Shown here piece by piece: positions 21,539 through 27,908 of a DNA stretch of 38,355 nucleotides (position 1 is the first letter of the stretch; the number at the start of each line of letters is the position of its first letter). The stretch lies in the NCBI GenBank assembly GCA_009909035.1, contig JAAAOB010000044.1, positions 1-38,355 of the forward strand. Direction: 5' to 3'. A program made the translations under genes and the position numbers. This DNA comes from Bacteroidota bacterium (lineage in GTDB: Bacteria > Bacteroidota > Rhodothermia > Balneolales > Balneolaceae). The notes under the pieces were generated by a model. The model worked only from the letters and a program-made list of their open reading frames with translations. It had not been told where the DNA came from and searched no databases.

Positions 21539-24412
21539 ATGATATCATCAGACACAGTTAAAAAATTCCTTTTGCTGCTGGTTATGATTTTTGCATTGCA
21601 TGCGCAGGCTGAAATCACATCCGCGGAAAGTATGCAGGATAGTCAAATTACCATCAGCGGCACTGTCTATGATGCGTCCACCGGCAGTGCGCTTACCGGG
21701 GTGAATATTACGGTGAAAAACCGTGTGGTGGGAACATCCACAAATTCAGACGGTGAGTTTACCCTTCGCGTGAACGGGGAACCTCCGATCACGCTTGTTA
21801 TATCGATTATTGGGTATGTTTCAAAAGAGATCCCGATAACGGAGAGTAATGTTACCGACTTAACCATCGAGATTGAAGAACAAACAATTCTTGGATCAGA
21901 TGTGGTGGTATCTGCCTCGAGGGTAGAGGAGAGCATTCTGGATGCCCCGATCAGTATTGAAAAAATAGATGCAATTGGCATTCAGCAGGCAGCCGCCCCT
22001 TCATTTTATGATGCCATTGCCAATTTAAAGGGTGTTGACTTCAGCACCCAGAGCATGACATTCAAATCAGTGAATATGCGGGGTTTTGGCTCTAACGGGA
22101 ATTTACGTTTTGTTCAGCATATCGACGGTATAGATAACCAGGCGCCGGGACTTAATTTTCCAGTGGGCAATATTGTGGGTATATCCGATCTGGACCTTGA
22201 AAGTGCCGAGCTTATACCCGGGGTGGCATCGGCACTCTATGGTCCCAACGCCATAAACGGAATTCTGCTGATGCGGAGTAAAAGCCCGTTTGATTACCAG
22301 GGGTTTTCAGCCATTGCCAAAACCGGCGTTAACCATATTGACAGCAATACGGAAGACGTATCGCTATATCACGACTACTCGGCACGGTACGCCAAATCGT
22401 TCAATGATCGCTTTGCCTTTAAACTAAATGTTTCCTACCTCGAGGCTCAAGATTTCAGGGCTACCGACAGGCGGGATACCGGGCCGGCTACTTTCGGAGT
22501 TATTGAACGTGGTGCAACCCAGCGCGGAGATAACCGGGTGTACAACGGCCTGAATGTCTACGGTCAGCCGCTTCTGACCATTGGGAATATTGCTGATGGA
22601 CTTATTGCCGGTGGAGGGGCCCAGGGCGCACAGATTGAGGCCATACGTACACTATTACCCGATGGGGAGGCGGGTGCGTTTACACCTGATGGTTTTGTTG
22701 AATCATCCTTTGTAGATAATACAACTGAAAGTTTAAAACTTGGGGCCGCAGCCCACTACCGTCTGTCAGACAATTACGAGCTTCTGGGGCAGTTCAACTG
22801 GGGAAGTGGAAGTACCGTTTATACGGCAAACGACAGATTTATTCTGGATGACTTTATTATCTGGACAGCAAAGCTGGAACTCCAAAATCCGAACTACTAC
22901 CTGAGGGCCTACACAACCCAGGAAAATTCAGGCGATACCTATGCGGCCAACACCGTGGCTTCTCTGATTAATGCGGAGACATTTATTCCGGCCTATTTCG
23001 AGGCCTTTGCCGGCGCGCGAACGCAGGGCGCCTCAGTGGAGGAGGCTCACAGTCTGGCACGTACTGCCGGTCGGCAGGCGCAGCCTCAGCCAGGCACACA
23101 AGAGTTCAATGAGCTTTTTAACCAGTTCAGGGATATCCCAATATCGGAGGGTGGTGCAAAATTCCTGGATAAAACCGGCATGTGGCATGCAGAGGGGCAA
23201 TATAGCTTTAACCAGCTCATAGACCCGGATGTTGTGGATGTAATTGCGGGTGCAAATGTCCGGAGGTTTACACTTAACTCGGATGGAACACTATTTGCAC
23301 TCGATGATGATGGCGAAGAATTTAATCTGGATGAGTTTGGGGCTTACCTGCAGCTATCAAAATCTGTTTTAGACGATAAACTGGATCTGCAGGGATCCCT
23401 GAGATATGATAAACACCAGGACTTTTCCGGACAGATTTCACCCCGGGCATCGGCTGTTTACCAGGTTGGAAATAATCACAATTTCAGGGCCTCTTTTCAA
23501 CGCGGATTCCGAATCCCATCAACGCAAAATCAGCTGATCGACCTTGATGTCGTTGCACGGAGATTGCTGGGGAACAATGATGTTATTATTGACCGCTACC
23601 GGCTAAGAGATAATCCTGTGTACCGGACCGAAAGCGTGGAAGCCGCCCGGGAGGCCCTCCTTGAAGGCGCATCACCACAGGAGGCCCGAAGCCTGTTAAA
23701 TCAAGTTGAGTTTGAACCGTTTCGGACGGAAAAAGTATCCACGTTTGAGGTTGGATATAAGTCGTTAATCAACAACAAGCTATTCATCGATGCATACTAC
23801 TACTATAACATTTATGACGATTTTATAGCAGATATTGAGCTTATCCAGGGTGTGCCAAACGGATTGCGACAGCCGGCAGGTGATTTCGACTCAACGACGC
23901 CGGAAGGACAGGATCAGATCATTAATCAAACCGTGGCTACACAGCGGTACGGCCTGAATATTAACGCAGACGGGGATGTACTTTCGCAAGGCTTTGCTGT
24001 TGGCGCGGAATACAGTCTGCCCAAAGGCTATAACGTAGGTGGTAATCTATCCTATAACGAGTTGATTTCGCAGGACGACTTGCTGGACCAGGGGTTTCGC
24101 GCAAGCTTCAATACACCGGAATGGCGCTATAATCTATCTCTGGCCAATCGAAGAGTAACGCCGGAATTTGGATTTAACGTCACCTACAGGTGGCAGGATG
24201 CATTTCTTTGGGAGTCTACGTTCGGGGAGGGCGTGATGCCGGCCTTCGGCACGATGGACGCACAGGTTAGCTACAAATTCCGCCAATATAATTCAATTCT
24301 AAAAATTGGTGGAAGCAATATCTTAAACGAGAGGTATGAAACCTCTATCGGAAACCCAACGATGGGAGCCATCTACTACATATCACTCACCTTTGATCAA
24401 CTTCTGAATTAA
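21539..24412 (+). CDS. TonB-dependent outer-membrane receptor with carboxypeptidase-like N-terminal domain
   Basis: 957 residues. Signal peptide about 1-24 (ending LHAQA). Residues about 36-120 form a carboxypeptidase D regulatory-like beta-sandwich (ISGTVYDASTGSALTGVNITVKN ... ISIIGYVSKEI). The plug domain is about 130-250 (VNMRGFGSNGNLRFVQHIDGIDNQ ... GVASALYGPNAINGILLMRSK), followed by the 22-strand barrel, ending NPTMGAIYYISLTFDQLLN. It imports a ligand across the outer membrane with TonB energy. There is no SusC-type signature or SusD partner. The lipoprotein gene begins 3 bp after the stop, so the two are one transcription unit and probably one functional unit. Confidence 0.92.
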   Translation: MISSDTVKKFLLLLVMIFALHAQAEITSAESMQDSQITISGTVYDASTGSALTGVNITVKNRVVGTSTNSDGEFTLRVNGEPPITLVISIIGYVSKEIPITESNVTDLTIEIEEQTILGSDVVVSASRVEESILDAPISIEKIDAIGIQQAAAPSFYDAIANLKGVDFSTQSMTFKSVNMRGFGSNGNLRFVQHIDGIDNQAPGLNFPVGNIVGISDLDLESAELIPGVASALYGPNAINGILLMRSKSPFDYQGFSAIAKTGVNHIDSNTEDVSLYHDYSARYAKSFNDRFAFKLNVSYLEAQDFRATDRRDTGPATFGVIERGATQRGDNRVYNGLNVYGQPLLTIGNIADGLIAGGGAQGAQIEAIRTLLPDGEAGAFTPDGFVESSFVDNTTESLKLGAAAHYRLSDNYELLGQFNWGSGSTVYTANDRFILDDFIIWTAKLELQNPNYYLRAYTTQENSGDTYAANTVASLINAETFIPAYFEAFAGARTQGASVEEAHSLARTAGRQAQPQPGTQEFNELFNQFRDIPISEGGAKFLDKTGMWHAEGQYSFNQLIDPDVVDVIAGANVRRFTLNSDGTLFALDDDGEEFNLDEFGAYLQLSKSVLDDKLDLQGSLRYDKHQDFSGQISPRASAVYQVGNNHNFRASFQRGFRIPSTQNQLIDLDVVARRLLGNNDVIIDRYRLRDNPVYRTESVEAAREALLEGASPQEARSLLNQVEFEPFRTEKVSTFEVGYKSLINNKLFIDAYYYYNIYDDFIADIELIQGVPNGLRQPAGDFDSTTPEGQDQIINQTVATQRYGLNINADGDVLSQGFAVGAEYSLPKGYNVGGNLSYNELISQDDLLDQGFRASFNTPEWRYNLSLANRRVTPEFGFNVTYRWQDAFLWESTFGEGVMPAFGTMDAQVSYKFRQYNSILKIGGSNILNERYETSIGNPTMGAIYYISLTFDQLLN

Positions 24413-24415
24413 ACT

Positions 24416-26092
24416 ATGGGACGCTCTATGAACTCTATCCAAACGTTTTTCTCTGTTGTACTTCTTGCAGCCCTCGTATTTGCGGGGTGCGAAAGTGAAT
24501 TTGATTCGCTGGTTGATGCAAATAAAGAACGGAACCCCATTCCGGATACCGAAGTTGAGGCTTCCCAGGGGGATGCTGATTTCTCAAATTTTATCACCAT
24601 TGGAAATTCCCTGACTGCAGGATTTATGGATGGTGCTCTATACAACAACGGCCAGGAGCACTCGCTGGGAGCGCTCATGTCTGCTCAATTTGAGTTTGCG
24701 GGGGCTCCTTCGGTGTTTAATCAGCCCGATATTAACTCAGAAAATGGCTGTAATACCAGTATTACAAGCAATTGTGCAAATCCAAATCCACTTGGCAGAT
24801 TTAAACTTGATACCAGCATACCCGGTCCGTCTCCCACGGTTAACGGGGAGCAAATCACCGCCTATTCGGGTGCGGCCGCCGATCTCAATAACTTTGGCGT
24901 TCCGGGAATCAGGGTTGGAGACCTCCTGAATGTGGGTGTTGGAGTCCAGGGTGATGCTGCATTTAACCCGTTTTACCAGCGCTACGCATCGTCTCCGGGA
25001 AGCTCAACAATTTTAGATGATGCAATCAGCTCAAATCCTTCGTTTTTCACGCTTTGGATTGGAAATAATGACGTGCTGGGCTATGCTTTGAATGGTGCCA
25101 GAAATAACGATCTCCTGACGTCACCGGAGGATTTCCAGAACGATTTCCAGGAGGTTATTTCACGGCTCACGACGGAAACGGAAGCTGACGGAGTTGTGGC
25201 TACAATTCCCCAAATACTTGCCATTCCGTTTTTCAGAGCTGTCCCATATAACGCCATTCCGCTCGACCAGGAGACTGCGGCCCAGGTGAATGCCGGTTTT
25301 GAAGGGTTTGATCAGGTCCTGGATGCAATTGTTGCAAATCTTGGCCATGACCCTGATGATGCCGACCGGCGCCGCGTCAATTACCAGGCGGGTCAAAACC
25401 CTATTTTGATTGTAGACCGCAATCTCGAAAATTTAGGGCCAAAGTTCGACATTATTGAGCAATTTGGCGGTATCACGGCTGAGCAGAGAGAAGCTCTGCA
25501 ACCATATGTTCAGTCGAGACCCATTGAGCAGGGCGAGCTGGTGCTTTTATCGGCCTCCACGCTGCTTGGAACACTTGCTAACCCGCAAAATCCCAACACA
25601 CCCATCGGGGTGGTAATTCCTCTTGGCCCGGAATTTACATTAACATTTGAAAATCAGGCAGAAATTGAGACCGCACGCCTAACCTTTAACTCGATCATTG
25701 AATCAACAGTAGCGGGAGCGTCCGGCGGTGATCAGCAGCTGGCGCTTTACAATACAGATGATCAAAATAGTGCCTTTTCGAAGATTTTTGGTCTCGATGG
25801 CAGCTCGCCGGGTATCACGATTGAAGGAGTTGACCTAAACCCTGACTTTAGTCCGAATGGCGTATTTTCAACCGATGGGGTTCATCCTAATCAGCGCGGA
25901 AACGGAATTATCGCAAATGAGTTTATTTCCGTGATTGAGACTGAATTTAATGCGCAATTGCCGCCGGTTGATGTGCTCTCGCTGCCGAGTGTAAGTGTTT
26001 GTGCAGGTGATTGTGTCAGTCAACAAGCAAAATCCATTCAAACCGCGGAGCGCACCAATGTCAACATTGACAACTCCTACATCGGGCATTAG
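24416..26092 (+). CDS. SGNH/GDSL hydrolase lipoprotein
   Basis: 558 residues. A lipoprotein signal ends in LVFAGC (Cys25); the ATG at 24428 (MNSIQTFF) would also give a good signal, so the start is open. SGNH motifs: Ser65 in FITIGNSLTAGF, Asn218 in WIGNNDVLGY, and Asp487-xx-His490 in STDGVHPNQRGN. The protein is more than twice the size of a plain SGNH esterase because of long inserts between motifs. It is predicted to be an esterase anchored in the outer membrane. Immediate coupling with the TonB receptor suggests it releases, or deacylates, a compound that the receptor takes up. A terminator follows. Confidence 0.88.
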   Translation: MGRSMNSIQTFFSVVLLAALVFAGCESEFDSLVDANKERNPIPDTEVEASQGDADFSNFITIGNSLTAGFMDGALYNNGQEHSLGALMSAQFEFAGAPSVFNQPDINSENGCNTSITSNCANPNPLGRFKLDTSIPGPSPTVNGEQITAYSGAAADLNNFGVPGIRVGDLLNVGVGVQGDAAFNPFYQRYASSPGSSTILDDAISSNPSFFTLWIGNNDVLGYALNGARNNDLLTSPEDFQNDFQEVISRLTTETEADGVVATIPQILAIPFFRAVPYNAIPLDQETAAQVNAGFEGFDQVLDAIVANLGHDPDDADRRRVNYQAGQNPILIVDRNLENLGPKFDIIEQFGGITAEQREALQPYVQSRPIEQGELVLLSASTLLGTLANPQNPNTPIGVVIPLGPEFTLTFENQAEIETARLTFNSIIESTVAGASGGDQQLALYNTDDQNSAFSKIFGLDGSSPGITIEGVDLNPDFSPNGVFSTDGVHPNQRGNGIIANEFISVIETEFNAQLPPVDVLSLPSVSVCAGDCVSQQAKSIQTAERTNVNIDNSYIGH

Positions 26093-26179: not shown

Positions 26180-26491
26180 TTACAGGTCAACTTTATAGTC
26201 TACGAAGTACCGCTTATCCGCAACGGATTCAATAAAACTGATCGCTTTTTGATGATGAGCATTTCGGGTATACATCTGAAAGTCCAGCTCTGTATCAAAA
26301 TCGCAGATAAGCACCACATCAAGCGCATCGTCTTCATCGGGGTTAATCTGAATGCCAACTTCCACAGCCTTAATCTCATCAATATTGGAGCGGAGTCCTT
26401 CCAGGATCAGCTTTAATTTCTGTGCATTCTTCTCTTTCGTGGCACCTTCAGCTTCATCTTTCAGTTTCCACATAACAATATGGCGTATCAT
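26180..26491 (-). CDS. Dabb (stress-responsive alpha/beta barrel) family protein
   Basis: 103 residues starting MIRHIVMWKLKDEAEGATKE, the characteristic Dabb opening (I-R-H-I-V-x-W-K), and continuing VGIQINPDEDDALDVVLICDFDTELDFQMYTRNAHHQKAISFI. Dabb proteins are small dimeric ferredoxin-like barrels with varied or unknown activities. The gene starts 30 bp after the HU-LysM gene and shares its strand, so it is probably the last gene of that operon. A functional link with the HU proteins is not apparent. Confidence 0.9.
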   Translation of the reverse strand: MIRHIVMWKLKDEAEGATKEKNAQKLKLILEGLRSNIDEIKAVEVGIQINPDEDDALDVVLICDFDTELDFQMYTRNAHHQKAISFIESVADKRYFVDYKVDL

Positions 26492-26521: not shown

Positions 26522-27619
26522 TTAGCGCTGAGTTGCGAATGCCAAATCCGATGGATCGACGCTGTCAGAAACTCGTTGAAGTTCCTCTTGAGAGTATGAT
26601 CCCATCGCCCAAAGGTAAAACCTGGCGTTTTGCGGTTGATTCTCTTTCATCCAATCATACACATAGAAATAACCTCTTGCAACTTCTCTTCTTTCAGTAT
26701 CTGTGAGATTATTTGGATCACCAAGCGGTGGCAGATAGATCAACATACCTGCTGGAATGAGTGTTGGATTGCCGATAACTGACCTGTTGTTGTGAAATAT
26801 CAGTGGCCACAAGTACCCATCACCATATTCGTTAATGGAAATATCCCACAAGGTGTCGTTACGGCGAATGGTATAAACGTTACGATCTTGTTCTTCAGTA
26901 TCCGCAGGGGTTGTATTTGAAGTTGCAGTATCGGATTCTTGAGAATTTGCAGCCGTAGATTCATGGAGCGTATCCATGGTTATTTCCATGCCGGATGATT
27001 GCTCAACCTGTGTCAGTTCAGGAGGCTCGCTTTCATTCGATCCCTGCAGATCGGATTCGTCGATCCCACCTTTGTATATCGCGAGGTAGAAGAGGAGAAA
27101 TAACACAAGCACGGCCAGCACCGATACGGCAAATGGGGACCAGTGAAACGTAAAATCATCACGATCGGAACGTTCCGTTTCGGACATTCCGACAGGCATC
27201 TGTTCATCATCTGTTGGTTCGGATGCCGCCCGGCCGGTCTGAGCATCGGCAGATTTTTTCAGGGAAATATAGTCAGCAAGAGGTTTAGGACGCTCTATGA
27301 GCAGATCCTCAACAGACTCTTCCCCCGACGTTGCATCAGGATCACTCGTGCGCCGCACCATACGGAGCTGAGCTGGGTGGTTGATGCGCTCCCGAAGCTT
27401 TTTGTACGGGCTGAAATTCAACACCCTGCCCGGTCCCGAATCACGGGGTTGAACTTCGAATTTACCAAATTCATCGATTTTAACGGAGTCACCCTCCCTG
27501 AGTTTCGTCTCAATGATGTCCACCAGCTCCGACAGGAAGCTGTTTACGGACTGCTCGTTTTCATTGGTTGACTGCGATATTTTTTCAACGAGCTCTTTGA
27601 AGGTAACCTTCTCACTCAT
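26522..27619 (-). CDS. HU-like DNA-binding domain joined by a membrane span to a periplasmic LysM domain
   Basis: 365 residues with an unusual order. Residues 1-82 are an HU/IHF-like domain (VTFKELVEKISQ ... GDSVKIDEFGKFEVQPRD ... NFSPYKKLRERIN). The DNA-grasping arm is very short and lacks the usual R-N-P tip. Residues 85-158 are a charged linker. Residues 162-183 form one membrane span (PFAVSVLAVLVLFLLFYLAI). Residues 185-246 are an acidic Ser/Thr/Glu linker. Residues 248-298 are a LysM domain (VYTIRRNDTLWDISINEYGD ... LIPAGMLIYLPP). An uncharacterised tail follows (REVARGYFYVYDWMKENQPQ). HU inside and LysM outside would bridge DNA and peptidoglycan. It overlaps the upstream HU gene by 8 bp. 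Confidence 0.88.
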   Translation of the reverse strand: MSEKVTFKELVEKISQSTNENEQSVNSFLSELVDIIETKLREGDSVKIDEFGKFEVQPRDSGPGRVLNFSPYKKLRERINHPAQLRMVRRTSDPDATSGEESVEDLLIERPKPLADYISLKKSADAQTGRAASEPTDDEQMPVGMSETERSDRDDFTFHWSPFAVSVLAVLVLFLLFYLAIYKGGIDESDLQGSNESEPPELTQVEQSSGMEITMDTLHESTAANSQESDTATSNTTPADTEEQDRNVYTIRRNDTLWDISINEYGDGYLWPLIFHNNRSVIGNPTLIPAGMLIYLPPLGDPNNLTDTERREVARGYFYVYDWMKENQPQNARFYLWAMGSYSQEELQRVSDSVDPSDLAFATQR

Positions 27620-27908
27620 CGACAGGCTCCTGTAACTTCAGATTGTTTTTCAGACGTTGAGATGGTTGAAAGTTCACAGTCTTTTTCAGCGATGGGGGTG
27701 TGTCGGGCAGATCGTCACGCATTGGAAGCGTGGGGGAAGACGTTGCTTGTCCAACTGAAAAGGTGCCAAAATCAGGCAGTGATATTTCGGAGCCGAGCTC
27801 AAGTTCAGTGCTGATGTTTTCAAAAATTTCATGAAGCAGATTCTCCGCATCAGTTTCGGTGATATTCCTCGATTCAGCAATAATATATATCAATTCTAAA
27901 TAAGTCAT
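27612..27908 (-). CDS. Small divergent HU-like DNA-binding protein
   Basis: 98 residues. The HU fold is recognisable: MTYLELIYIIAESRNITETDAENLLHEIFENI for helices 1-2, then LELGSEISLPDFGTFSVGQ for the first strands, and a C-terminal VNFQPSQRLKNNL helix. The arm between the strands (ATSSPTLPMRDDLPDTPPSLKK) lacks the conserved R-N-P intercalating tip, so sharp DNA bending is doubtful. It overlaps the start of the HU-TM-LysM gene by 8 bp, so the two are translationally coupled and could form a heterodimer. Its gene is divergent from aconitase with 278 bp between. Confidence 0.82.
   Translation of the reverse strand: MTYLELIYIIAESRNITETDAENLLHEIFENISTELELGSEISLPDFGTFSVGQATSSPTLPMRDDLPDTPPSLKKTVNFQPSQRLKNNLKLQEPVDE

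Follow-up and report, generated by a model that had tools for sequence, protein, structure and literature searches.

Overlapping HU-like genes of Balneolaceae, one with a predicted membrane span and a LysM domain: a possible tether between nucleoid and cell wall

Organization of the locus

We analyzed a contig of 38,355 nucleotides, here called the window (JAAAOB010000044.1, positions 1 to 38,355, of assembly GCA_009909035.1, a Bacteroidota bacterium of the family Balneolaceae), which contains a pair of overlapping genes for HU-like proteins at positions 26,522 to 27,908. An earlier note on this DNA had described two HU-like genes overlapping by 8 base pairs (bp), the larger with a membrane span and a LysM domain; this description was borne out, the products being 98 and 365 amino acids (aa) long. 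The features are as follows.

27612..27908, minus strand: small HU-like gene (98 aa), putative partner subunit; arm of normal length, NPHY motif of its relatives lost
26522..27619, minus strand: large gene (365 aa), encoding in order an HU domain with a shortened arm, a linker, one membrane span, an acidic linker, a LysM domain and a helical tail
27612..27619, minus strand: 8-bp overlap of the small and large genes, ATGAGTGA
27356..27619, minus strand: HU-like domain of the large protein, residues 1-88
27071..27136, minus strand: predicted membrane span of the large protein, residues 162-183
26723..26881, minus strand: LysM domain of the large protein, residues 247-299, of the YgaU/Kbp type
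26525..26701, minus strand: conserved helical tail of the large protein, residues 307-365
26180..26491, minus strand: Dabb (stress-responsive A/B barrel) gene, downstream of the pair

The HU fold that the note had placed at the N terminus of the large protein was recovered in residues 1-88, with modest confidence in the predicted structure (predicted local distance difference test values of 50-78 by block). The HU/IHF profile PF00216 matched the two proteins of the pair at 46.1 and 43.4 bits, above its curated cut-off of 22.4, and scored 87-96 bits in the HU domains of three relatives of the large protein. Among the sequences of solved structures, the best match of the small protein was IHF alpha (1.2e-7). 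The LysM fold of the large protein was confirmed, with YgaU as the closest profile and Kbp as the closest structures; the long linkers were modeled at low confidence. W323, L336, W337 and D358 of the tail following LysM were invariant across 35 aligned proteins; no named family matched the tail, which the structure comparisons hardly covered. When LysM plus tail served as the query, the search returned the window protein itself, four of its close relatives and, aligned over 39% of the query, a further four LysM proteins, one of which is named YgaU. Profile searches gave no match to the FimV family, the cytoplasmic part of the large protein being HU plus linker. No PADLOC model matched either protein, and a role in anti-phage defense was set aside.

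Topology was assessed on 150 large proteins (83 from the protein search described below and 67 from loci), of which 149 were distinct and a few incomplete. Exactly one segment rose above the hydrophobicity threshold in each of the 149 distinct proteins. Lysine plus arginine averaged 3.9 in the 20 residues before the span and 0.9 after it, an excess which predicts a cytoplasmic HU domain and a periplasmic LysM domain. This prediction comes mainly from the family average; the opposite placement of the two ends that the note had claimed is thus supported for the family, the asymmetry of the window protein itself being slight (2 versus 1). Simple patterns found an LW motif after the span in 129 of the 149 proteins and the tail motif in 117, indicating that the tail is not universal.

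Conservation of the pair in Balneolaceae

A protein search with the large protein returned 83 sequences including the window's own, 62 of which aligned over the whole query; the same search with the small protein returned only three. We built a profile from 35 of the 83 sequences and searched 128 genomes of the order with it. Among the matches listed, those spanning HU and LysM fell solely in the window's own family, and the best match in the other four families of the order (E = 2.5e-19) covered an HU-only stretch. Named loci with the same proteins belonged to Balneolaceae, including Rhodohalobacter halophilus, R. sulfatireducens and an uncultured Aliifodinibius; one was labeled Chitinophagaceae.

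We then examined the gene upstream of the large gene at 70 loci, 30 of them taken from this profile scan. L153 and L154 were excluded as non-members, and L032 was truncated at the end of its contig. At all 67 remaining loci a small HU gene lay directly upstream on the same strand, overlapping the large gene by 8 bp at 38 loci, 4 bp at 18, 11 bp at four and 1 bp at two; in the other five a gap of 2, 3 or 17 bp separated the genes, the start being unsure in the 17-bp case (L152). The conservation of the pair, which the note had proposed to look for in Balneolota genomes, was found, and these 67 loci rule out an accident of the window genome. The small gene also adjoined the large one in three of five further genomes that carry the latter (G027, G028, G030, G072 and G081); the small-protein profile did not find it in G028 and G072, both of which are fragmented. 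By hand count, that profile matched a small partner at E <= 1e-25 in 72 of 92 genomes of the family, and in 55 of the 66 of good quality (at least 90% complete, at most 5% contaminated). Near-complete genomes with no LysM-type small gene at this threshold were G006, G008, G011, G012, G016, G017 and G039. We concluded that the pair is a conserved unit, lying side by side in most Balneolaceae genomes examined.

The HU arms and divergence in the window's species

In relatives, the typical arm of the large HU domain, RxGxNPQTGEEITIPxQNKVVFKPYK, is HU/IHF-like, and that of the small one reads YNPHYxxxMxxPPKRVVxF. A strict pattern was met by 135 of the 149 large proteins, and ten of the 14 others, read from the list, still had a full arm with the tip proline, so that the tip-proline motif is kept in 145. 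The four exceptions, P0001 to P0004, form the window's clade; the arm is shortened in P0001-P0003 and altered in P0004. N/S-P-H was kept by 66 of the 67 small partners; in the sole exception, L116, the large arm too is atypical. The window's pair lacks the tip-proline, DNA-bending arm: the large arm is shortened, and the small arm keeps its length with its motif gone, as in P0084 and P0085; the small protein P0086 retains SPHH. The erosion of both arms that the note had described is thus real in the window pair but not general, and is, judged by this distribution, a derived state of the window's clade. In the window's species the grip on DNA may have been weakened, lost or exchanged for another ligand.

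To gauge divergence we compared identities to eight relatives, whose loci were chosen for strand, using the sister genome L007 as a yardstick. Dabb identities were 74-89% for the window and 75-84% for L007. Corresponding ranges were 48-54% and 63-74% for the large HU domain, 28-41% and 40-53% for the small HU protein, and 38-55% and 45-53% for LysM plus tail. When the arms were removed, median identities to 26 relatives were 55% (window), 66% (L007) and 57% (another relative, L033) for the large HU core and 32%, 43% and 48%, respectively, for the small one. These figures, with and without arms, indicate that both HU domains of the window shifted together, mostly but not solely in the arms; the large core of the window is hardly more divergent than that of L033.

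A second pair and the origin of the HU domains

The window genome has a second overlapping pair, on contig C122 (L005:454-1861, G000:C122), in which a 70-aa mini-HU gene, its product shorter and lacking the first helix, precedes a gene for HU, a transmembrane span (TM) and SPOR. Bacteroidota relatives carry two HU domains, one membrane span and a C-terminal SPOR domain on one chain, and the SPOR pair is the split form of this fused protein. The comparison of SPOR relatives drew on 15 loci, of which L186 yielded a fragment only and was left out of the alignment. Relatives of the SPOR pair share a conserved upstream gene, whose product ends, by eye, like an outer-membrane barrel.

We built a tree of 58 HU domains over 96 columns, in which branches were long, that of the window's small protein among them. 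Thirteen large domains of the LysM type formed one group (support 95/85) and 15 small partners another (100/100). In the best tree both groups stood with 22 ordinary HU proteins, apart from five SPOR-type and three Bacteroidota domains (100/99), and the LysM-type large domains and the SPOR type already formed one side of a weak branch (82/74). Likelihood tests (p value of the approximately unbiased test, p-AU) did not reject a grouping of LysM type with SPOR type against ordinary HU (0.59), nor one of LysM-type large and small domains together (0.59); rival topologies, namely LysM large with small, small with SPOR, and all anchored domains against ordinary HU, were equal or better (0.53-0.59). 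An independent origin of the LysM and SPOR pairs, as read from the best tree, was thus not upheld. Judged by profile scores, domains of the LysM type are ordinary HU, and CCDC81 models matched below cut-off only: neither PF18174 nor PF18175 was among the matches listed for the window's large protein, and the small one gave 24.9 bits with PF18175 (cut-off 35) and no listed match to PF18174.

Neighboring genes

A Dabb relative was present at all 26 loci compared (25 named loci and that of the window); at each of the 16 where its position was read, it came immediately downstream of the large gene. On the plus strand at 21539-26092 lie a gene resembling TonB receptors and, 3 bp on, a lipoprotein-like gene of the SGNH/GDSL type, both named by sequence reading; at 18 of the 26 loci a relative of the former lay in the vicinity of the HU pair.

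Discussion

We propose, with a probability of roughly 0.45, that in most of the family the two proteins form an HU heterodimer at the inner membrane whose LysM domain reaches peptidoglycan, the whole acting as a nucleoid-to-wall tether. Coupled translation of the overlapping genes would make both subunits together, and these would pair as an HU heterodimer. The large subunit would insert in the inner membrane with its N terminus inside, so that its LysM domain could hold peptidoglycan in the periplasm while the HU heads bound DNA in the cytoplasm; the complex, tethering nucleoid DNA to the cell wall, might help to position or segregate the chromosome. The retention of the partner gene as a pair, together with the fused two-HU plan of the Bacteroidota SPOR relatives, favors a heterodimer, and the small and large HU proteins likely form one.

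Several known systems resemble the pair in part. Burroughs et al. (2017, Cell Cycle 16:1093) reportedly treated HU clades, with the HU-CCDC81_bac_1/bac_2-TM-SPOR proteins of Bacteroidota, and chromosome partitioning, which their title names. These resemble the window system in having two HU domains, one span and a C-terminal wall-binding domain; they differ in that the window has LysM rather than SPOR and two genes rather than one, and in that the LysM-type HU domains match ordinary HU strongly, keep their arms in most members and score below cut-off with CCDC81. With PF18174 and PF18175 below cut-off and LysM in place of SPOR, we ruled out filing the pair under HU-CCDC81/SPOR. The split pair on C122 shares the plan of a small HU gene overlapping a gene for HU, span and wall domain, and differs in its SPOR domain and in its shorter small HU without the first helix. 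IHF alpha/beta is likewise a heterodimer of two HU-type subunits, and IHF alpha is the best match of the small protein, but IHF is soluble, with neither membrane span nor wall domain. HubP/FimV proteins share a periplasmic LysM, one span and a cytoplasmic part; they have no HU and reach the chromosome through ParA1 only. In HubP/FimV the LysM precedes the span, whereas in the window's large protein it follows it. HubP, a LysM-bearing membrane protein, acts through ParA1 to influence where the origin of chromosome 1 lies (PMC8789113), and FimV of Pseudomonas putida shows that LysM anchors can serve purposes unconnected with the chromosome (PMC12918733).

Several results weigh against a tether. 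Net charge averages -0.2 in the large HU domains (146 others) and -1.1 in the small ones (67); it sums to -11 for the HU domains of the window pair and to -16 for the L115 pair, despite intact arms in the latter, while the ordinary HU proteins of the window genome carry +3 and +9. The charge asymmetry around the window protein's own span is slight, as noted above. By the same hand count, the small gene was not found at E 1e-25 in 11 of the 66 good-quality genomes of the family, although one of these, G089, had a match at 1.5e-17. No partition or division gene was recognized beside the pair, its neighbors being named partly by eye. When a natural tandem HU protein (L187) was modeled as a single chain, the model matched single-chain IHF weakly and aligned better to chains of microtubule doublets. 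Finally, in structure the LysM domain comes closest to Kbp of E. coli, a cytoplasmic potassium-binding protein. Because its arms are eroded and its HU net charge is -11, the tether is a weaker proposal for the window's own species than for the family.

The better fit of the tandem model to microtubule-doublet chains suggests that the fold may serve protein binding, and the HU heads might accordingly bind protein rather than DNA, making the pair a scaffold that is anchored to the wall and serves a partner in the cytoplasm, in the way that HubP and FimV do through their cytoplasmic parts. We consider this unlikely, since the HU/IHF-like arm motif kept in both subunits of most members is hard to explain without DNA. 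The closeness of LysM to the YgaU model and Kbp structures allows for a ligand-binding domain of that kind, in which case the protein would be a membrane anchor with no link to the wall; this is improbable, and could be combined with a scaffold or with a regulator. Such a membrane-bound gene regulator, its wall-facing LysM sensing the envelope and its HU heads altering DNA architecture at a few promoters, would account for a DNA-binding fold and a predicted periplasmic domain on one polypeptide, and for the constant Dabb neighbor. We regard it as very unlikely: HU usually has no sequence specificity, profile searches matched no signaling domain in either protein of the pair, and the long low-confidence linkers would transmit a signal poorly. 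Equally doubtful is that the window species' pair is a once functional tether decaying under relaxed constraint (itself compatible with a tether in the family), which would fit the HU identities below those of L007 at similar Dabb identity and the long branch of the small protein, but the excess divergence shrinks without the arm, both frames are intact with their 8-bp overlap, three more relatives (P0002-P0004) have an eroded arm yet retain the large gene, and the invariant LysM and tail residues are kept.

Returning to the tether, a further and more tentative proposal is that Balneolaceae have two HU-built chromosome-to-wall tethers side by side, the HU-SPOR pair and an IHF-like LysM heterodimer of the ordinary HU type, which possibly evolved independently, and that in the window's species this LysM pair is being adapted to a new use through joint changes to both arms. 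The automated names of two homologues (P0052, P0056) already combine HU and YgaU; searches of the open-licence literature listed no account of an HU-TM-LysM protein, many subscription papers lying outside their scope. Proteins of this HU-TM-LysM plan occur in named Rhodohalobacter strains (L041, L048). How bacteria attach their chromosome to the envelope has long been asked, and a nucleoid-type protein passing through the inner membrane to the wall would, if true, be a very direct link; that a single genome carries both a LysM and a SPOR version of one plan suggests that the design is selected for.
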